From: Methanobrevibacter sp.
Lineage (GTDB): Archaea > Methanobacteriota > Methanobacteria > Methanobacteriales > Methanobacteriaceae
DNA: 47,074 nt
Assembly: GCA_017459665.1 (NCBI GenBank)
Contig: JAFUCN010000083.1
Span: forward strand, 1 to 47,074
Direction: 5' to 3'
In this document: positions 21,635 through 47,074 of the stretch, piece by piece
Position numbering within the stretch: the stretch's first letter is position 1
Layout: the number at the start of each line of letters is the position of its first letter
The notes under the pieces: generated by a model
What the model saw: the letters and a program-made list of their open reading frames with translations, nothing else
The model's database searches: none
Told to the model about the DNA's origin: nothing
Program-made: the position numbers and the translations under genes

Positions 21635-23539
21635 ATGCATATTGAAAGACAATATAGAGAACTTGAAAAAGTCGAGGAAGTGCGTGTTTATAATGTACGC
21701 CCTGACGAAATCTTTAATGAGGTTCCTCCCGTTAAGAAACCTGAAAAGGTTCGTTTTAGTAATGTTATGAAACATGTGCCTTCAGACATAAATGTATTTT
21801 TACCTATCGACGACGGTGAAGATTACATAGTCGAAAGAGTGGGCTGGAATCTACTTGAAAGAACAAATGTTACATTGGAAGATGTTGAAGGCCGTAAATT
21901 CAGCCAGATTTCACCATTCTACTATGAAATATTTCATGAAGCTTTTAAAGAAGTTTATAAAACTAAAAAAACAAAAGCCATGAGAGTTTTCTATTATCTA
22001 AGCGATAGGATTCAGACCCTTGCAAATGTTCACATCCTCTGTGATGAAGGCGAAATTTATGCAATTTCCGATTTAAAAAATACAACAGGAGAAGACAAAA
22101 CTTTTGAACAACAGCAAATGGAAGATGATGAGAACAAAGCCAATATGATTGAATATTTCTCACAAACCGGAAGTTACTATAAAACCAGAGATGAATTTAC
22201 CTGGACACCCGGTATTTACAATATCATAAACCGTTCAAAAGAACCTGGAGATTCCCACTATAACATCATATTCGATTTGGTGATTCCTGAAGACAAACCA
22301 TTAGTCGAAGAGCTTCTTGATACTATGAGTCCTGAAACTGACACATATGAAAACATCATCCGTATCAAAACACCAGGAGGACACATAAAATACCTGGACA
22401 CTTATCTTTACTCAAAATTCGATGAAAATGGTGAGGAAATCAGCCATTATGGTTTATTTAAAGATATAAGTGTGGATTCACACAAGCACATGACAAGACC
22501 TGTCGATTTCATGTTAAACGGATTCAATCACAATTCAAAATTATCATTGCTTGTAGAGCCTTTAAGTAAAAGATACGAGTTCAGTGAAGGATTCTATAAA
22601 ATGATTGAGATTCCTAAAGAGGATTATATCCACAATATGGATGTCCTCGATAACATCATTGAGGATGAACCTAAAAAAGAACTTAAAAGATTAATTGCAG
22701 GAGACCTCAAAGAAGTAAATACAGTTTTCACATACAAAGTAAATGGTGATGAAGACAACATGAAAATATGTGAACTGTTCATTGAAAGATTCACCTACGG
22801 TAATAAGGACCACAGTATTGGATTTTTAACAGACATTACCCTATCACGCAAAAAACAGCAAGAACTAATAAAATCAAATGCAACCAAGAACATATTAATT
22901 AAAGAAGTGCACCACAGGGTTAAAAATAACCTTCAAGTATTGAGTAGTTTTCTAAACCTTGAGAGAAGAGCATATGGTGATAATCCAAATCGTATTTTGG
23001 ACAACATGCAAGCACGTTTGTCTTCACTTGCATTGCTTCACGAGAAAACCTACAATACTGAAGACTTCATTAACATAAACCTTGAAGACTATATGAAAGA
23101 TCAAGATTCAACCCTTCACATGTTATTCGGAGCAAAAGACATCAACTTCACATCAGAAGTGGACCCTGAAATCCACTTATCAATCGATGTTATTACACCA
23201 CTGCTCCTAATAGTTGACGAACTTACAATGAATGCAATCAAGCATGCATTCCCAGACCCCGATATGCCGAACAAGACAATTTCTAAAAAAATTGACTTTA
23301 TTGACGAACATATCTGTAAATTAATATTAAAAGATAATGGAGTTGGACTTAAAGACCCTGATGCATTAATCAACCACAATTTAGGTTGGGAAATTATCAA
23401 CAATTTAACTAGACAAATTAACGGAGAATTAGAGATTTTAGACTGTGAAAAAGGAACTGGATTTAAAATTATATTCCCAGTAAATTTAGACCATACAATA
23501 GCATATCACCGCGAAATGTGGGAGCGTGAGGAAAAATGA
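21635..23539 (+). CDS. Cytosolic PAS-domain HisKA_2 histidine kinase, copy 1
   Basis: 634 aa without membrane segments. An N-terminal region of about 150 residues may be a sensory domain of its own. A PAS-like domain covers about 170-280 (MIEYFSQTGSYYKTRDEFTW ... YGLFKDIS), and a further region at 285-405 is PAS-like as well. The HisKA_2 dimerisation motif EVHHRVKNNLQ has its phospho-acceptor His in the pair 426-427. The HATPase part follows, with N box DELTMNAIKHAF, DNGVGL and GTGFKI. It should phosphorylate one or both receiver domains downstream. Ribosome site AAGGTAAT. First gene of the operon; its stop overlaps the next start by four bases. Confidence 0.92.
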   Translation: MHIERQYRELEKVEEVRVYNVRPDEIFNEVPPVKKPEKVRFSNVMKHVPSDINVFLPIDDGEDYIVERVGWNLLERTNVTLEDVEGRKFSQISPFYYEIFHEAFKEVYKTKKTKAMRVFYYLSDRIQTLANVHILCDEGEIYAISDLKNTTGEDKTFEQQQMEDDENKANMIEYFSQTGSYYKTRDEFTWTPGIYNIINRSKEPGDSHYNIIFDLVIPEDKPLVEELLDTMSPETDTYENIIRIKTPGGHIKYLDTYLYSKFDENGEEISHYGLFKDISVDSHKHMTRPVDFMLNGFNHNSKLSLLVEPLSKRYEFSEGFYKMIEIPKEDYIHNMDVLDNIIEDEPKKELKRLIAGDLKEVNTVFTYKVNGDEDNMKICELFIERFTYGNKDHSIGFLTDITLSRKKQQELIKSNATKNILIKEVHHRVKNNLQVLSSFLNLERRAYGDNPNRILDNMQARLSSLALLHEKTYNTEDFININLEDYMKDQDSTLHMLFGAKDINFTSEVDPEIHLSIDVITPLLLIVDELTMNAIKHAFPDPDMPNKTISKKIDFIDEHICKLILKDNGVGLKDPDALINHNLGWEIINNLTRQINGELEILDCEKGTGFKIIFPVNLDHTIAYHREMWEREEK

Positions 23540-25407
23540 GAGTTGAAAAAGAGTATAGGCGTTTAGAAAACACCGAAGAGGTTCGTATTTACGATATCAC
23601 TGAAAAGGAACTATTTGTACAAGTGCCTAGAGAATTTGATTTGCCGGATTTTCCATTTGAAAAAACATTGAGCAATATCACAAATGATATTGATATTTTT
23701 ATACCTCATGAAGATGGAAAAGATTTTATCGTGCACAGATTAGGTTTGGGTGCACTATCCAGAGGAGAAATAACACATGCAGACGTTTCTGGACGTTTAC
23801 TTAGTAAAACATCCCCAGGATTTTACAAAATTTTAGCTGAACCGCTAAGAGAAGTGTATCAAACCAAAAAGACTAAAAAAATGAGATTTTTTTATCATTT
23901 CCATGAGAAATTAGCCAGATTTTCAAATGTTAAAATCATAAGCGACATGGGCAAACTAATATTAATCTCAGACCACAGGGACAATAGTGAAAGCAGATTG
24001 CATGTATCTAATGATGACACATCTGGTGAAAAAGCAAATCTGATTGAATATTTCTCCCAGACTGGAAGTTACTATAAAATCAATGACAGATATTCCTGGA
24101 CACAAGGTATCTATAACATTATCAATCGTCAAAGAGAAGAAAACGACGAATACTACAACATTGTTTTTGATTTGGTGATTCCTGAAGACAGACCGTTAGT
24201 TGAAAAAATTCTTAGAGAGCTGGATGCCGGAAGAACTACATACGAATCAGTAATCAGAATCAAAACTGATGATGGAACAATAAAATATGTTGAAATTAAC
24301 CTTTATTCAAAATTTGATGAAAATGGAGAATTGGTAAGCCGTTATGGTTTAATGAAAGATGTGAGTACCGATTCCAACAGGAAAATGACAAGACCTGTCG
24401 ACTTCCTGCTTAAAGGGTTTAAAAACAATAAAAAGCTTGCATTATTAATCGAACCGTTAAATGTAAAACAATATGAATTCTCAGAAGGTTTCTATCACCT
24501 CATAGAAATTCCTCCGGAAGAATATAAACACAGCAGAAAAGTATTCGAGAATATCGTTGAAGAAGATGTTCAGTGCAGAATCCTGGAACTGCTTAATGGC
24601 GAAACCAATGAACTTTCTGAAAGATTCACATACAAAGTTCACGGTGATGAACACAACCAGAAAATGTGTGATATCTATCTTGAAAGATTCGAATTCGGCC
24701 AAGACACTCACAGTATCGGATTTATAACCGACATTACTGAAGAGAGAAACAAACAGATGGAACTGATGGAAGCTAACGAACATCAAACCATTCTAATTAA
24801 AGAAGTGCACCACAGGGTTAAAAACAACCTGCAGGTACTTAACAGTTTCCTGAATCTGGAAAAAAGAGCATATAAAAACAAACCGAATGTAATCATTGAC
24901 CATATGCAATCCAGGTTATCCTCACTTGCTATCCTTCACGAAAAAACCTACAATACCACTGACTTCAAGAACATTAACTTAAGTGAGTATATTGTTGATC
25001 AGGACAGCCAGCTTAGAGGTTTAATCGGACTGAGAGATGGAATTGAATTTGAATCTGAAGTTGATGAGGATTTAGTATTAACTATTGAAGTGATTACACC
25101 ATTACTTTTGGTTATTGATGAACTAACCATGAATGCGATTAAACACGCATTCCCTGACAAGTCAGTTCCAAACAAAAAAATCGTCAAGAAAATCACTAGA
25201 ATTGATGAAGACACCGCTCAATTGATTTTAAGAGACAATGGAGTAGGTATCGAAGACCCTAAAGCAATTACTAAAAATCTCGGATGCGAAATTATCAAAA
25301 ATCTAACAAAACAGCTAGACGGACATATCGAATTATTCCAACACGAAAACGGAACAGGGTACAAACTGATTTTCCCAATAACCATGGAACATACAATAGA
25401 AGGATGA
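23536..25407 (+). CDS. Cytosolic PAS-domain HisKA_2 histidine kinase, copy 2
   Basis: 623 aa, a paralogue of the preceding kinase over its full length: the same N-terminal start (RVEKEYRRLENTEEVRIYD), the same PAS-like part (YFSQTGSYYK at 172-181), the same His pair at 425-426 (EVHHRVKNNLQ), and N box DELTMNAIKHAFP. Copies differ most in the first 150 residues and around 340-365, where sensing specificity probably lies. The arrangement points to an in-place duplication. The two could form homodimers or heterodimers. ATGA overlap with copy 1; a 65-base gap with ribosome site GGAAGGAT leads to the receiver gene. Confidence 0.92.
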   Translation: MRVEKEYRRLENTEEVRIYDITEKELFVQVPREFDLPDFPFEKTLSNITNDIDIFIPHEDGKDFIVHRLGLGALSRGEITHADVSGRLLSKTSPGFYKILAEPLREVYQTKKTKKMRFFYHFHEKLARFSNVKIISDMGKLILISDHRDNSESRLHVSNDDTSGEKANLIEYFSQTGSYYKINDRYSWTQGIYNIINRQREENDEYYNIVFDLVIPEDRPLVEKILRELDAGRTTYESVIRIKTDDGTIKYVEINLYSKFDENGELVSRYGLMKDVSTDSNRKMTRPVDFLLKGFKNNKKLALLIEPLNVKQYEFSEGFYHLIEIPPEEYKHSRKVFENIVEEDVQCRILELLNGETNELSERFTYKVHGDEHNQKMCDIYLERFEFGQDTHSIGFITDITEERNKQMELMEANEHQTILIKEVHHRVKNNLQVLNSFLNLEKRAYKNKPNVIIDHMQSRLSSLAILHEKTYNTTDFKNINLSEYIVDQDSQLRGLIGLRDGIEFESEVDEDLVLTIEVITPLLLVIDELTMNAIKHAFPDKSVPNKKIVKKITRIDEDTAQLILRDNGVGIEDPKAITKNLGCEIIKNLTKQLDGHIELFQHENGTGYKLIFPITMEHTIEG

Positions 25408-25472
25408 GGTTTTAAATTAAATTTAAATAAGATAAAAAATAGATAATTAAAATTGTTAATTGGAAGGATAAT

Positions 25473-25883
25473 ATGAATGAAAGAATATTAGTTGTAGAAG
25501 ACGAAGCTATTACTGCATTGGATTTAAAATATAGTTTAGAGGAATTAGGTTACGAAGTTATTGATACTGTTGATACTGGACAAGCTGCAATTGATACAGC
25601 AGCAGAGCAAGTTCCAGATGTAGTTTTAATGGATATTAAATTAAAAGGAGACATGGAAGGTATCGAAGCAGCAGCAGTAATCTCAGAATGGAATATTCCA
25701 ATTATTTATTTAACTGCAAACACAGATACTGATACTTTCGAAAAATCAAACGTTAAAGGCTCCTACGGATTTGTTTCAAAACCATACGATATTAACAAAC
25801 TCGACAAAACACTTAAAATAACTATCAACAGAGCAAAACTCGAAGCTAAAAGATTAAATGATGCTAGCGGTTTTACAGAATAG
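25473..25883 (+). CDS. Stand-alone response regulator receiver (CheY-like)
   Basis: 136 aa, a single receiver domain. The acidic pair is Glu9-Asp10 with Glu11 (LVVEDE), the phospho-acceptor Asp54 (VLMDIKLKGD), the switch Thr81 (LTAN) and Lys103 (VSKPYD). There is no output domain, so it acts by contact with another protein or passes phosphate on in a relay. Directly after two histidine kinases and before a receiver-glycosyltransferase fusion, it is a likely phosphate intermediate or a sink. The sequence of its first 30 residues is typical for the PAS-linked receivers found beside HisKA_2 kinases. Confidence 0.93.
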   Translation: MNERILVVEDEAITALDLKYSLEELGYEVIDTVDTGQAAIDTAAEQVPDVVLMDIKLKGDMEGIEAAAVISEWNIPIIYLTANTDTDTFEKSNVKGSYGFVSKPYDINKLDKTLKITINRAKLEAKRLNDASGFTE

Positions 25884-25893
25884 ATAGATTTAA

Positions 25894-27639
25894 ATGACGG
25901 AATTAACATTAATAGAAGGTAGACCTAAGGTTTTCGTAATAAGTTCGGATAAAGAATTAATAAATGAAATCAGAGACTACGTTGAAAGTTACGAATATGA
26001 CCTTGTAGGTCACGCCGGTAATAAAGGAGACATATTTTCTGAAATTGACAGAAAATCTCCTAATTTACTTTTTTTAGATACTGACCTTGAGGGTATGGAT
26101 TTATTGGATTTGGCTGGAGATTTAGAGCTTTTTAATGTTCCAGTTATACTGGTTGTTGGAATGCGTTTTGACGAAACAGTAGATGAACTTTTAACCAGTA
26201 ATCCTTTTGGTTACTTGCTAAAACCACTTGAAGAAGGAGAAGTACAAAGGTCTATGGCTGTTGCACTTAAAAAGCATGAACAGAACATTTTAAGTGTGAA
26301 ATATGCTCAGGACAAAATCAGAGAAAAGAATGTGGAGCTTGTAATTGAAAAATCAGACTCAAGTTTTCTTTTAATCTTATGTATGGCATTGATTATTCTA
26401 GCCGTCCTTACAAGAAACGCAACCTGGCTTCAATGGTTACTCTTAATACCTACCTTAGCTATGCTTATCAACTCATTAGTTAGTATTAAAAAGCAAAAGA
26501 AAATTATCCCATTTGAAGAAGGGGAAGAACCATTCATCAGCATTTTCATCCCAGCACACAACGAAGAATATACTATCGAATCTACAATCAGAAGTGTTTG
26601 CGCATGCGAATATGAAAAAGACGGGGAACCAAACTTCGAACTTATTGTTGTAAACGACGGGTCTACAGATTCCACAGGTGAAATCCTAGCAGGACTTAAA
26701 AATGAACTTCCACAACTTAAAATCGTTACAAGACACCCTCCAAGATCTGGAAAAGGTAAAGGATTTGTTTTAAACGATGCTTTAGCCCTATCAAGAGGAG
26801 ATATTATAGGAGTATTTGATGCAGACACCCAAGTTAAAACAGATTTCCTATCAACCATAGTAAAATACCTTAATGGAGAAGTTGACGGCGTTCAGTCAAG
26901 GGTAAAGATGTTTAATAAAAATGAGAACTTCCTTGCCCGTATGCAACATGTAGAGTTTGCAAGTTTCGGAAATACATTGATAGCTAAAGACAACCTGGAC
27001 CAGACAGGATTTTTAGGTGGAAACGGCCAGTTTGTAAAAAAACAGGCAATTATCGAATCCGGAAGATGGGACGGTTTTGCTGTAACTGAAGATTTGAACC
27101 TTGCAATTAAGATTATCCTAAATGGTGGAAAAATACGTTACTGCGGCGAATGTGCAGTATACCAGGAAGCGGTTACCGAATGGAAAGCATTCTTCAGACA
27201 AAGAGTCAGATGGGCTATAGGTAACTTTGAGACATTATTTGTATATCTTCCTCAAATTTTAAGATCCAGAATATCAATTGCAAAGAAATTTAATGTAATT
27301 GAGCACATTTCATTTTACAGTTTTAATTTATTAATCTTTTTCGGATTCATTGTCAGTATCATAAATGTAATCTCCTGGTTCCTTTTCCATAATGTTACCA
27401 TCATTAGAATGGAAGCACCATTCATTGTAGGTATCCTTTCAGTCATTTCATTCTTCCCAGGGATCATATTGGCTCTTTCAAGAGACAAACCTGGAATTCA
27501 GGAGTTCTTTAAAGATTTAATCAAATATTATGTTTATTGTTTCCATTTGATTCCATTATTCTTCTTGACAATGATGGAAATGATGACCAGAAAAGAAAGA
27601 AAATGGGCCAAAACTGAGCATAAAGGAGGCAACAAATGA
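25894..27639 (+). CDS. Receiver domain fused to a membrane processive glycosyltransferase (family 2)
   Basis: 581 aa. Residues 11-125 form a receiver domain with the phospho-acceptor candidate Asp62 (FLDTDLEGMD) and Lys110 (GYLLKPL); the acidic pair at the start is weak (ISSDKE). Two membrane helices (about 157-173 and 177-196) follow. Then comes a GT2 catalytic domain: NDGSTDS (254-260), the metal motif DAD (309-311), TED (398-400) and QRVRW (436-440), the QxxRW mark of processive synthases such as cellulose and hyaluronan synthases. Three more membrane helices (474-499, 507-529, 545-562) close it. It probably makes and exports an extracellular polysaccharide, with phosphorylation as the switch. 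Stop overlaps the next start by four bases. Confidence 0.9.
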   Translation: MTELTLIEGRPKVFVISSDKELINEIRDYVESYEYDLVGHAGNKGDIFSEIDRKSPNLLFLDTDLEGMDLLDLAGDLELFNVPVILVVGMRFDETVDELLTSNPFGYLLKPLEEGEVQRSMAVALKKHEQNILSVKYAQDKIREKNVELVIEKSDSSFLLILCMALIILAVLTRNATWLQWLLLIPTLAMLINSLVSIKKQKKIIPFEEGEEPFISIFIPAHNEEYTIESTIRSVCACEYEKDGEPNFELIVVNDGSTDSTGEILAGLKNELPQLKIVTRHPPRSGKGKGFVLNDALALSRGDIIGVFDADTQVKTDFLSTIVKYLNGEVDGVQSRVKMFNKNENFLARMQHVEFASFGNTLIAKDNLDQTGFLGGNGQFVKKQAIIESGRWDGFAVTEDLNLAIKIILNGGKIRYCGECAVYQEAVTEWKAFFRQRVRWAIGNFETLFVYLPQILRSRISIAKKFNVIEHISFYSFNLLIFFGFIVSIINVISWFLFHNVTIIRMEAPFIVGILSVISFFPGIILALSRDKPGIQEFFKDLIKYYVYCFHLIPLFFLTMMEMMTRKERKWAKTEHKGGNK

Positions 27640-28271
27640 GAAAACAAGACATGTTCCGTGGATTAATAATTGTAATTCTTATAATAATTATTGCAGCTAA
27701 TATTAATGGAATTAATAGTTTTTTAAGTGTTCAGACTGATAAAACTGTTGATTTTGGACATAGTGTAACTGTGGTTCCTCATGCATGGAATACCACTGAA
27801 GAGTTAAACTTAACAAACCAGTCAAAAACTCCCCATGCAATAACCAATGAATATGTTTATATCGACCATTGGGACGATTGGCCTGAAGACCATATCACGG
27901 CAATCTCGGAAGCTAAATTCAGAGCAATGGAAGATGGCGGTTATAAAGTTTTGAAAAACGAATATTCAACCATTTCAGGAGTTGAAGTTTCAAAACAATA
28001 TTTCTCAAATCCTTCAAGAGATAATGATGTTGTATGGAGCCATATCGGTGTAAACTATGTATTCCCTAAAGAGGATACAAATTATGCCATTCAGGTACAT
28101 TACTTCACAACCCACGACTACAACAACTCCACTTTCTTAAAAGAAGTTGACGATCGTGTTGAAGACGATATGAGTAATATCCACAACAATGATTATAGAG
28201 CATTTGCATCTACAATCAGACACGGATTTGAGTTCATCTCAAACCTATCTTTTAATCAAAAAGACGATTAA
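27636..28271 (+). CDS. Membrane-anchored extracytoplasmic protein of the synthase operon
   Basis: 211 aa. One N-terminal membrane helix (DMFRGLIIVILIIIIAAN) is followed by a soluble part facing outside. It starts with a PsbP-like edge (DFGHSVTVVPHAWNT) and contains an aromatic, acidic stretch (YIDHWDDWPEDHITAI). No catalytic motif recognised. Its start overlaps the end of the glycosyltransferase gene (ATGA), so it is probably a partner at the membrane, for instance in polymer export or sensing. Last gene of the operon, followed by an inverted-repeat terminator. Confidence 0.8.
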   Translation: MRKQDMFRGLIIVILIIIIAANINGINSFLSVQTDKTVDFGHSVTVVPHAWNTTEELNLTNQSKTPHAITNEYVYIDHWDDWPEDHITAISEAKFRAMEDGGYKVLKNEYSTISGVEVSKQYFSNPSRDNDVVWSHIGVNYVFPKEDTNYAIQVHYFTTHDYNNSTFLKEVDDRVEDDMSNIHNNDYRAFASTIRHGFEFISNLSFNQKDD

Positions 28272-42492: not shown

Positions 42493-43486
42493 TTATCCGA
42501 TGAATTTCCTATGGGATATTTTCACGTTGTTTTGATTCACCATTGCATATTGCATGGTAGTGTCAATCTGCACATGACCCAAGAGCCTTTGAACCTGTTC
42601 AATAGGCATTCCTTTATCAATTGCATTTGTTGCCATTGTTCTTCTGAACTTATGTGGATGTATCTTTTTGATTTTAGCTTCGTGGCCAAGTTTGCGCATT
42701 CTTTTTTCAACACCTGGAATACCCAGCCGATCATGAGGTTTTCTGAGAGATACAAATAGTGCAGGATTATTGTCTTTTCTGGACTCCAAGTATTTTTGAA
42801 GGTGAATTTTTGTTTTTGCATCAAAGTAAACTATACGTTCACTGTCACCTTTGCCCAATACAACACATTCCCTTTCACTAAACAGAACATCATCAATATT
42901 TAGATTTACAAGTTCACCCACACGTACCGGTTGATGCTAAAAGCTCAATCATTGCCAAATCTCTGATGTTATCACACTTGTCCCTTAGGACTTCAAAATT
43001 CTCATCGCTTAAAACCTCTTTCACCACCCTTTTGGTTTTAATCCTATGAATCCTTCTAACCGGATTTTTTGAAATATGTCCCTCATCCTCAAGCCAGCTG
43101 AAAAAACTAGACAAAACTCGCCTGATATTGTCAATCGTTGATTTGGATGCATTACTCTGATTTTTATAGTCTGCCAAATATTTTCTCAAATCATCAGTTG
43201 TGATGCTTTCGATTTTAAGATTAACTGATTCCAACATCTTGAAAATCATGTTTCTGTAATAATCAATGGTTTTTTCAGAACATCCTTCAATTTGTTTGGC
43301 TGAAAGAAAAGACACCAACAATTCATGATTTTCTTTTGATTCATCAAACGATAAATTATTGTCCTTTTTAAACAATTCAAAATCATTCAAAATACTTTTA
43401 AGACATTCATTAAGTCGTGCTATTTGAATTTCATTTAGATAATGTTCCATATTACTTTCTATTAATCTAATCAGTTCATTTTTCAT
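42493..43486 (-). pseudogene. Tyrosine recombinase (XerC-like integrase), frameshifted
   Basis: Two frames make one gene. The first (43486 down to 42914) has the SAM-like N-terminal core-binding domain (SEKTIDYYRNMIFKMLESVN) and runs to LLASTGTCG and a stop. The second (to 42493) holds the catalytic end: GELVNLNIDDVL, HPHKFRRTMATN (His and Arg), LLGHVQIDTT and the Tyr in MQYAMVN. A 2-base deletion in ACGT at 42922-42925 (expected ATGCGT for the Met-Arg of STGMRVGEL) explains the shift and removes the first catalytic Arg. Start has GGGTGATT. Relic of an integrated element or of an XerA-like enzyme. Confidence 0.8.
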
Positions 43487-43676: not shown

Positions 43677-43701
43677 AAAATAGTGCATTGGGCACTATTT
43701 T
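43677..43701 (-). terminator. Terminator of the surface protease gene
   Basis: AAAATAGTGC/GCACTATTTT with a 5-base loop; on the minus strand it is followed by an AT-rich, T-tract stretch. It overlaps the stop codon. The interval 43487-43676 contains no gene. Confidence 0.75.
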
Positions 43702-46700
43702 ACTTTAACGGTTGTTTTTATTGTATCCTTAATGTATGTCACTTTGACAGTGTAGGTTTTACCCTTTTTAAGCTTTTTAATAACATTCTTCTTAAGTGTC
43801 GTTTGAGCAATTCCTTTCTTGTTGGTTTTAACCTTATAGGTTTTGCCGTTGAACTTGAATGTTACAGTTTTACCTTTAACCAATTTACCATTGATTTTGA
43901 GCTTAGCTTTCAAGGTAAACTTCTTAGCAGTCTTTTTGACAGTGACTTTGCTGGCTGTTAAGACCTGTTTTACTGTAACTTTATTGGTATAGGTTTTGCC
44001 GTTGAATACAGTTTTGATAGTGTATTTTCCAGGAGTTTGCGTTATTTTTATTTTAGCAATTCCATTGCTGTCAGTATTAACAGTTGTGGTTTTGCCATTG
44101 AATACAAATTTAACACTTGATCCCACAACAATCCTGCCATCGGCAGTAACGACTTTAACTGAGAAATATTTTCCTCCATTATAATCAACTGAAATGTCTT
44201 TGTTGGCGGTGATTTTACTGTCATCGGCTACAGTATAAACCTTAAGGCAAACTGTTCTGTTTTCCAGCGTGATATCCTTCCATGTGCTGCCGTCGGCACT
44301 TACAAAAGACATTCCCTGAATATAATGCTGTCTTGAATATGTCTGGTATGGAAGATTGTTGTTTTTGAATACTACTTTAAACTTATCCCCTTTTTTAACT
44401 GAAACATATTTGCTTAAAACAATTGTCCTGTATCCTGCAAACTCGCTTACACCGCTTTGTGAGTGCACCAGTTTATCGTTCATGTAAATGTCAAATGAAT
44501 AATTGATTCCTAACTGGTTGAAGTATGTTCCAACAGCGGCAATCAAATCATCATACTGTGATGTGAACTCATTGGAATAGTGAGTATAATTGCTGTCGAA
44601 ATCAAACAAACCACCTAAATCTGTCTGGTAATTGACATGATAATCTATTGCATTAGTGAAAATGCAAGCTGTGAACGGATAAATGCAACCGGTATCTACG
44701 TCAGGTGTAAAAAATGATTTTTCATAGTATGAGAGGTAGAAATATCCTTCATCTCCCCATTCGGTTCCCCAGCTGTTTTTAACAATCCATGCACCATCTC
44801 CTGGAGGAGTGATTAAAAAGTTATTAGCCTTAAAGTTATCATCCCATCCTATGATGGCAACTCCATGGTCAATCGGAAGGGATTCATTTGTATACTGTGC
44901 TGAAGTATCTGCATTGAAATAAGGTTCTTCAAAACTGCAGGCATAAGCAATTGAAACAGCACCGTAATTTAAAATCGCTTTTTTAACCTCATCAACATAA
45001 TTACCGGCATCGGGCATGATGAATAAAACATCATGAAGATGTATCTTATTTGGGCTTTCAACAAAAACGGATAATTTCCCGACTTCATCATATTCATCTT
45101 CTGTTTCACCAACACTCAGCCAGCTGACCACATTAGCCAAAGCCATATAGTAAACTCCTCCTTCATCATTCTGTAAATCTCCAAATTCTGAGTATCTTAT
45201 TTGGAGATTCTGAATATAGTTTTCAGAGACATCATATCTGATGCCTGTTGCTTTTAAAAGAGCGGTTTCCAACGCTTCGCCAAAGGCAAATGTCCAGCAT
45301 GAACCCATATGACCCTGATTTTTAACGGGTGTAATCCATCCCCAGTCACGCAAATCAAACCTTGAGGGAAGAGTTGAAATACTAATTGTATTGTTGATTA
45401 AAGTCAGATTCAATCCGGGATATTCGAAAGATACGGGTGAATAAAATGACTGATTGGTGATTACACTGTCATTGGCATATTCATTATTGTTGAGAATGCA
45501 ATTGTTTTTGTCAAAATCTGTGAAAATCGCATTTGCATTGTTTTTAAACACACAACTGGTGATATTATAACATGAATCACAGGCATATACTGCATTTCCA
45601 AGATATGCGGAGTTATTGAGGAATTCTGTTCGGGTCAGTGTCAGGTTACTGATGTCGCAATATACTGCGCCGCCGTAGTGGTTACCGGACAGTTTGTTTG
45701 ATTCAAAAATACAATTGTCAATTGTTGTGTTGGTAAATGAGATGTAAACTGCTCCTCCAACCTGAGCATTATTGTTTGTGAAGTTGGAACCGTTCAGGAT
45801 TAAACTGCCCCCAAGCTGAATATATGCTCCGCCATTCATGGATGATGAATTTATAAACGCACACTCAGTTATTGTAGCATTGTAGGCTTCCATTCCATAA
45901 TCAACCATTATAGCACCTGCATTTTTAATGGATTTGGTGTTGATGAACTCACAGCCTTTGATACATGAGTTACCTGCCCATCTTACGGCAATTGCTCCTG
46001 CGGATTTCTCGGCTGTAAGGTTAATGAATCTGGAATTAGTAATTGAACTTTTAGAATTTTCAAAATAGAGTGCGGATGCATAAGCAGAAGTTATGTTAAT
46101 GAAATCTGAATCATCTATGCTGACTGAGGAATGTGTGGCATAAATTTGACCATATTTACCAGTGCTGTGTGATGTGACAGATGAGTTTGAGACCTTTAAT
46201 GTGGAATTTTGTGAATATATGGATGATCCTCCTTCAGCGCAATTGTCAATAAAACTGGAACCTGCGCAATTTAAAATACCGTTGTAAATGGCAATTGCTC
46301 CGCCACGACTGGCATTATTGGCGATGAAAGTCACATTGTTTAATGTGATATTGCCGGTAGCATATATTGCACCTCCTACATTACTATTACCGTTGATGAA
46401 TACGAGATTGTTGATTGTTATATTGCTTCCTGTAATGTAGAATATTCTGGATTGGCCGTTTGCATCCAGAACATGATTGTTTCCGTTTATTGTGAAATTG
46501 CTTTTTTTAATAACAACCGAACCGCTGTCGGTTTCATTGCTGAAGGTGTAGTCATGTATTATTTCCAGCACATCCTCAGACCAGTTTATATGATTATTCA
46601 AATCTTTAAATGTGTAATTTATTATGTTGTCAACATCCTCAACAGTGTAGACTTTCAAACAAGCAATATTATTCTCAGTGACATATAAGTCTTTCCATTC

Positions 46701-47074
46701 ATAACCATTATAGAAAAATGAAGTGTTTTCAGTGAAATGCACCCTGCACCATGGACAATAACATAAAGGCATCATGTTTGAAGTAATAACCGCTTTGAAA
46801 ATATCTCCTTTTTTGACCGGCACATATTCATTTAACCTGATTGTATGATATCCGCAAAATGGGGACATGCCCTCCTGTATCAGTTTCAGTTTATCGTTTA
46901 CATAGATTTCTACAGTGTAATTCACATCACTGCTGTTGAAGTAGGTTCCCACAGCGGCAATCAAATCATCAGATGCAGCTTCAAACTGATTGGCATAAGC
47001 AATACTTCCATTAACATTAATACCAGGTGCTAATACACCATTCTCATCAAAACCGGCGAATTGACCGGACCATA
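43695..47074 (-). CDS. Giant adhesin-like surface protein with papain-like protease domain (N-terminus off the window)
   Basis: At least 1125 codons, open to the window end, so its start is outside. Order along the protein: a lectin-like domain after a missing first part (SGQFAGFDENGVLAPGINVN), a parallel beta-helix with many N-N and G-G-A-I-Y repeats, then a C1A papain-like protease, a second lectin-like domain, an Ig-like domain and a Lys-rich C-terminal repeat (VTVKKTAKKFTLKAKLKING). The protease has Cys in QGHMGSCWTF (codon 45297-45299), His in PIDHGVAIIGWDD (44865-44867) and Asn in VKNSWGTEWGDEGY (44775-44777). It probably acts at the cell surface on peptides or wall cross-links. Start uncertain. 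Confidence 0.85.
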   Translation of the reverse strand, partial: WSGQFAGFDENGVLAPGINVNGSIAYANQFEAASDDLIAAVGTYFNSSDVNYTVEIYVNDKLKLIQEGMSPFCGYHTIRLNEYVPVKKGDIFKAVITSNMMPLCYCPWCRVHFTENTSFFYNGYEWKDLYVTENNIACLKVYTVEDVDNIINYTFKDLNNHINWSEDVLEIIHDYTFSNETDSGSVVIKKSNFTINGNNHVLDANGQSRIFYITGSNITINNLVFINGNSNVGGAIYATGNITLNNVTFIANNASRGGAIAIYNGILNCAGSSFIDNCAEGGSSIYSQNSTLKVSNSSVTSHSTGKYGQIYATHSSVSIDDSDFINITSAYASALYFENSKSSITNSRFINLTAEKSAGAIAVRWAGNSCIKGCEFINTKSIKNAGAIMVDYGMEAYNATITECAFINSSSMNGGAYIQLGGSLILNGSNFTNNNAQVGGAVYISFTNTTIDNCIFESNKLSGNHYGGAVYCDISNLTLTRTEFLNNSAYLGNAVYACDSCYNITSCVFKNNANAIFTDFDKNNCILNNNEYANDSVITNQSFYSPVSFEYPGLNLTLINNTISISTLPSRFDLRDWGWITPVKNQGHMGSCWTFAFGEALETALLKATGIRYDVSENYIQNLQIRYSEFGDLQNDEGGVYYMALANVVSWLSVGETEDEYDEVGKLSVFVESPNKIHLHDVLFIMPDAGNYVDEVKKAILNYGAVSIAYACSFEEPYFNADTSAQYTNESLPIDHGVAIIGWDDNFKANNFLITPPGDGAWIVKNSWGTEWGDEGYFYLSYYEKSFFTPDVDTGCIYPFTACIFTNAIDYHVNYQTDLGGLFDFDSNYTHYSNEFTSQYDDLIAAVGTYFNQLGINYSFDIYMNDKLVHSQSGVSEFAGYRTIVLSKYVSVKKGDKFKVVFKNNNLPYQTYSRQHYIQGMSFVSADGSTWKDITLENRTVCLKVYTVADDSKITANKDISVDYNGGKYFSVKVVTADGRIVVGSSVKFVFNGKTTTVNTDSNGIAKIKITQTPGKYTIKTVFNGKTYTNKVTVKQVLTASKVTVKKTAKKFTLKAKLKINGKLVKGKTVTFKFNGKTYKVKTNKKGIAQTTLKKNVIKKLKKGKTYTVKVTYIKDTIKTTVKVK

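Follow-up and report, generated by a model that had tools for sequence, protein, structure and literature searches.

The locus analysed here raises the question of whether a receiver domain attached to a membrane polysaccharide synthase controls the enzyme through its own phosphorylation, as the initial annotation had proposed. It lies at positions 21635-28271 of the window, the whole 47,074-nt stretch of Methanobrevibacter sp. DNA (contig JAFUCN010000083.1). Open reading frame and Pfam analyses located five genes in this interval, all on the plus strand: HK1 (21635..23539), encoding a cytoplasmic PAS_3-HisKA_2-HATPase histidine kinase; HK2 (23536..25407), encoding a paralogous kinase of the same architecture; RR (25473..25883), encoding a stand-alone canonical receiver (PF00072, E=1e-21); RGT (25894..27639), encoding a membrane GT2 synthase (PF00535/PF13641, E=1e-26) with a fused pseudo-receiver; and SEC (27636..28271). 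The two kinases, the lone receiver and the receiver-GT2 fusion, with its QRVRW motif and Asp62, were present as first annotated, and SEC is an addition to that account. The genes are indeed joined by overlaps or short gaps, with a 4-nt overlap of HK1 and HK2, 65 nt between HK2 and RR, and 10 nt between RR and RGT in the window; a second 4-nt overlap joins RGT and SEC.

The order HK1-HK2-RR-RGT-SEC was kept in about 20 congeneric loci, indicating that the arrangement is not due to chance. The neighbours of the operon were constant in these loci as well, with purA on one side and an ORF28357-DUF6891-DUF6882-DapL block on the other. In most of the aligned RR upstream regions, an A/T-rich tttaaataaaat-like block was found at the same position; in the window it corresponds to a putative TATA-like element, TTTAAATA (25422..25429, plus strand), approximately 45 nt ahead of RR. 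Because this element is conserved within the 65-nt HK2-RR gap, RR, RGT and SEC may have their own internal promoter. Additionally, RGT starts 6-14 nt past the RR stop codon in most loci (about 25 loci) and lacks an evident ribosome site, a layout suggestive of translational coupling between RR and RGT.

The alignment of RR with the fused receiver (residues 12-130 of RGT; 25927..26283) is gap-free across the active site. The RR pocket is complete in the window, comprising the acidic pair (E-D), the phospho-Asp, Thr and Lys, and the full pocket expected of a phosphorylatable receiver was found in every adjacent RR that was readable. The fused domain of RGT lacks this full pocket: Ser17-Ser18 replace the acidic pair and Val88 replaces Thr, while Asp62 and Lys110 are retained. 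A 2025 review (PMC12632262) defines a pseudo-receiver as a receiver without at least one of the DD, D, T and K residues. Since the acidic pair and Thr are missing, the fused receiver is, judged from its residues, a pseudo-receiver by this definition, and it still matches PF00072 above the cut-off (E=1e-7) and is modelled by AlphaFold2 with the (beta-alpha)5 fold.

The loss is common to the 34 window-type fusions with mapped pockets (the window included), in which the first acidic position is acidic in 0/34, the second in 1/34, Thr is present in 0/34, Lys in 24/34 and Asp in 28/34. These fusions form one clade in the GT2 tree (34 rows, SH-aLRT 97). Conservation of Asp62, which the initial annotation had named as a test of its proposal, gave a divided answer, since the residue is kept in most of these relatives and is replaced by Ser in a 6-member subclade (99% support) that includes Methanosphaera MAGs. 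Given its conservation in Methanobrevibacter-type members, residual phosphorylation of Asp62 or a structural role is possible there.

The median dN/dS was about 0.019 for RR, about 0.076 for the pseudo-receiver and about 0.042 for the GT2 domain, rough values, as many synonymous distances exceed 1. The value for the pseudo-receiver indicates that this domain is under purifying selection and is not decaying, although by this measure RR is four times more constrained (mean identity of 0.89 vs 0.59). Within the pseudo-receiver, conservation was strongest in the hydrophobic strands and alpha5 (beta3 mean identity, 0.79; alpha5, 0.74, among the highest of all elements), and alpha2 (0.45), alpha3 (0.55) and the beta3-alpha3 loop (0.48) were less conserved. 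A 1396-aa variant (L091:5007-9197) carries approximately 800 residues of SKLDxII-type coiled-coil repeats, followed by a very diverged pseudo-receiver and the GT2 domain; it adjoins an RR and two kinases.

The relation of RR to RGT can be read from relatives in which two receivers and the synthase form a single REC-REC-GT2 protein. In the REC tree, RR and REC1 of the Methanobrevibacter-type REC-REC-GT2 proteins fall together with 99/99 support. Moreover, the C-terminal tail of RR, INRAKLEAKRLNDASGF, matches the N-terminal half of the linker between the two receivers of these proteins; a resemblance to the C-terminal half of this linker (IAKxEY/F) is seen in the N-terminal extension of Methanosphaera-type fusions. 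By homology, RR is thus the counterpart of REC1, and the pseudo-receiver that of REC2, in a single protein of relatives, a Rosetta-stone relation that suggests that RR acts on RGT. Both pockets are complete in 15 of the REC-REC-GT2 proteins; in the pair L097 and L098, which are related to each other, the Asp of REC2 is missing. As the pseudo-receiver clade lies among double-receiver relatives in the GT2 tree, the separate RR and RGT genes are best explained by gene fission. The opposite polarity, a fusion of separate genes, is less favoured but possible, as the receiver tree was borderline on whether all REC1 domains share one origin (p-AU 0.050) and a grouping of RR with REC2 was not rejected at 0.05 (p-AU 0.068). 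The loss of the pocket and the separate RR gene fall on one branch and represent a single evolutionary event with no independent replicate. L095, which has double canonical receivers and an adjacent lone receiver, was considered as an intermediate and dropped because its lone receiver has no linker tail and forms a long branch.

The catalytic domain of the synthase (26530..27243) was delimited by Pfam, by invariant columns and by comparison with the BcsA and hyaluronan synthase structures, which were the best structural matches of the core. Its motifs are D309xD311, T398-E399-D400 and QRVRW (residues 436-440; 27199-27213). The DxD, TED and QxxRW columns are invariant and TM helices flank the domain, as in BcsA-like processive GT2 enzymes. 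RGT shares this core and the TM helices with the cellulose synthase BcsA and hyaluronan synthase; unlike them, it has an N-terminal receiver module. No PilZ domain, the C-terminal mark of c-di-GMP control, was found in RGT by Pfam. Together with the genomic context, this supports the earlier view of a two-component system dedicated to one membrane GT2 enzyme without cyclic-nucleotide control. In the AlphaFold2 model of RGT (mean pLDDT 87), alpha5 of the pseudo-receiver continues as one helix (residues 114-173; 26233..26412) through the linker into TM1. A literature search on a polysaccharide or biofilm role in Methanobrevibacter returned nothing specific.

SEC encodes 211 aa with one N-terminal predicted TM helix and has no match in Pfam or, by sequence, in the PDB. 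For its extracytoplasmic domain, the AlphaFold2 model gave a weak PsbP/DcrB-like match in Foldseek (E about 1e-4; target TM-score of 0.46 for the best-ranked hit). SEC occurs next to RGT and almost only alongside it, and it therefore probably assists synthesis or export.

For both kinases, PAS_3 and HisKA_2 scored above the Pfam cut-off, with HATPase_c just below, and the phosphoacceptor His motif, N-box and DNGVG box of HisKA_2 kinases were all present. The phosphoacceptor motif EVHHRVKNNLQ lies at residue 424 of HK1, whose motifs were retained in 22 of the 23 orthologue ORFs compared; in HK2 it was found in 23/23 orthologues, with the N-box and DNGVG/DNGIG conserved. The kinases are not confined to the operon. 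The window genome yielded four kinases, each about 620-640 aa long. Three HisKA_2 kinases are encoded in the closed genome G014, where the other HATPase_c matches are one 599-aa frame and one 130-aa frame. In L084 and L085, RR-RGT occurs without adjoining HK1 and HK2, and other kinases are encoded elsewhere in those genomes. Several kinases thus appear, from this gene content, to converge on one receiver. Beside REC-REC-GT2 in a Methanothermobacter-type genome (L044), no kinases were found, and PolX and PcrB are located there instead.

Two further kinase arrangements were observed. In G024 (contig C35, 20415-23774), HK1 contains an internal TAG and HK2 is shortened, and neither the receiver nor the synthase was found in the genome; this pair probably stems from an operon copy in decay. 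In REC-REC-GT2 loci, the gene immediately following SEC encodes a compact HisKA_2-like protein of approximately 200 aa (NHRLNNDLQ, DNGSG; L040:3154-3774; L092:7717-8337; L093:3396-4001; L094:10081-10683), which may act as a phosphotransferase or represent a minimal kinase.

Receivers are scarce in the genus. The counts rest on one Pfam profile (PF00072), which misses the most diverged pseudo-receivers, and on genomes that are mostly MAGs of varying completeness. In the window genome (81% complete), RR and the pseudo-receiver were the only matches, and exactly these two were the sole matches in 23 of the 67 genus genomes, including closed G014. Any receiver at all was detected in 35/67, almost only where the synthase occurs, and few lay outside the RR/RGT system (G084, G005, G102, G018, G012, G091 and G090). 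Across the order, the receiver-GT2 fusion was found in 55 of 151 genomes. A contig scan covering 84,980 species placed its relatives almost only in Methanobacteriaceae, the exceptions being a contig from a record titled as a Bacillales MAG and a weak match that is unrelated. The fusion on the former (L130, titled uncultured Bacillales MAG) is of the Methanobacteriaceae type and 53% identical, and the record is probably mislabelled. In the single-contig genome G011 (L042:6582-8352), the synthase reading frame is broken into two ORFs that overlap, and the kinase ORFs are fragmentary, representing a frameshift or a pseudogene.

Based on these results, we propose a model in which signals from the cytoplasm would be perceived by the PAS-type domains of HK1, HK2 and their paralogues encoded elsewhere in the genome, and these kinases would phosphorylate RR. 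The pseudo-receiver on RGT would itself not be phosphorylated; instead, RR or RR-phosphate would dock on it in trans, replacing the cis REC1-REC2 pairing of the REC-REC-GT2 relatives. Docking would alter alpha5 of the pseudo-receiver, continuous with TM1 in the model, and this change may gate chain synthesis or extrusion. The intact pocket, present in the upstream RR and lost in RGT, makes docking, rather than phosphorylation of the synthase, probable, and we regard the model as a whole as reasonably likely. That several kinases feed one receiver, which in turn acts on a pseudo-receiver on the synthase, so that the covalent REC-REC switch occurs here as a two-protein switch with a docking site, is a reading to which we give somewhat better than even chances.

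The mechanism first annotated for this locus would have the kinases phosphorylate Asp62 directly, the attached phospho-switch then driving the synthase. The frequent retention of Asp62, the high conservation of beta3 and the mostly retained Lys would fit such a mechanism, and the fully canonical fused receivers of the REC-REC-GT2 relatives make cis phospho-control plausible for those proteins. However, the acidic pair, which holds Mg2+ as part of the receiver catalytic site (PMC12632262), is missing from RGT together with Thr, Lys is lost in 10/34 and Asp in 6/34 of the fusions, and the neighbouring RR keeps its pocket. Phosphorylation of the synthase itself is therefore improbable here. Of similar or even slightly lower probability is a scheme that has a small ligand bind to the pseudo-receiver while the kinase-RR pair acts on operon expression. 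Ligand binding does occur in some bacterial pseudo-receivers, and the models listed in PMC12632262 include one with a constitutively active pseudo-receiver under transcriptional control, but RR has no DNA-binding domain, the operon encodes no transcription factor, and conservation here is comparatively low in the regions that the review links to ligand binding (alpha2, alpha3 and the beta3-alpha3 loop).

Less remote, but still unlikely, is a purely structural or assembly role of the pseudo-receiver in dimerisation or membrane placement, with RR serving another target or acting as a phosphate sink. Strands and alpha5 as the best conserved parts are what fold or dimer contacts would predict, and most archaeal stand-alone receivers have targets that are unknown, according to a passage of PMC5847659. 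Against this stand the homology of RR to a domain covalently joined to the synthase in relatives, its position immediately upstream of RGT in about 25 loci, and the near-restriction of genus receivers to genomes with the synthase. Docking of RR on the pseudo-receiver is thus preferred to these three readings.

The receiver-GT2 architecture, which the initial annotation suggested looking for in other archaea, is not new. It had already been published for three genera by Galperin et al. 2018, in passages on Methanobacterium, Methanobrevibacter and Methanothermobacter proteins in which a BcsA-like glycosyltransferase carries one receiver or two (PMC5847659). RGT resembles these MTH_548-type REC-GT2 and REC-REC-GT2 proteins of Methanobacteriaceae in family (PF13641) and in restriction to the lineage. 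The loss of the pocket, the adjacent REC1-homologous RR, the kinases, SEC and the scarcity of other receivers in the genus go beyond those passages. In the literature search, MTH_548 was mentioned in Galperin 2018 only, and nothing relevant was found on pseudo-receivers with glycosyltransferases.

Like the bacterial pseudo-receiver regulators BldM/WhiI and CmrRST (PMC12632262), RGT has a fused receiver without catalytic residues, and as in CmrRST, a kinase, a canonical receiver and a pseudo-receiver protein are encoded in one operon. Unlike in these systems, the output is a membrane polysaccharide synthase rather than DNA binding, the host is archaeal, and the canonical receiver and pseudo-receiver are two halves of one protein in relatives. 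The review treats pseudo-receiver switching as an open question, puts forward phosphorylation-dependent receiver/pseudo-receiver heterodimers as a hypothesis, and was aware of no publication on the function of an archaeal pseudo-receiver. The RR/RGT locus offers a case for testing this hypothesis, because the presumed partner can be read from evolution as the other half of the same protein and almost no other receiver is present to confuse the result. If the proposal is true, a membrane synthase would be under direct phosphorelay control in methanogens of the rumen and gut, with neither a transcription factor nor a second messenger involved.

Elsewhere in the window, two adjacent minus-strand ORFs (42493-43486) resemble halves of one tyrosine recombinase that is apparently split, and a large repeat-rich ORF (43695-46964) resembles a surface protein with a papain-like motif (GSCWTFA).
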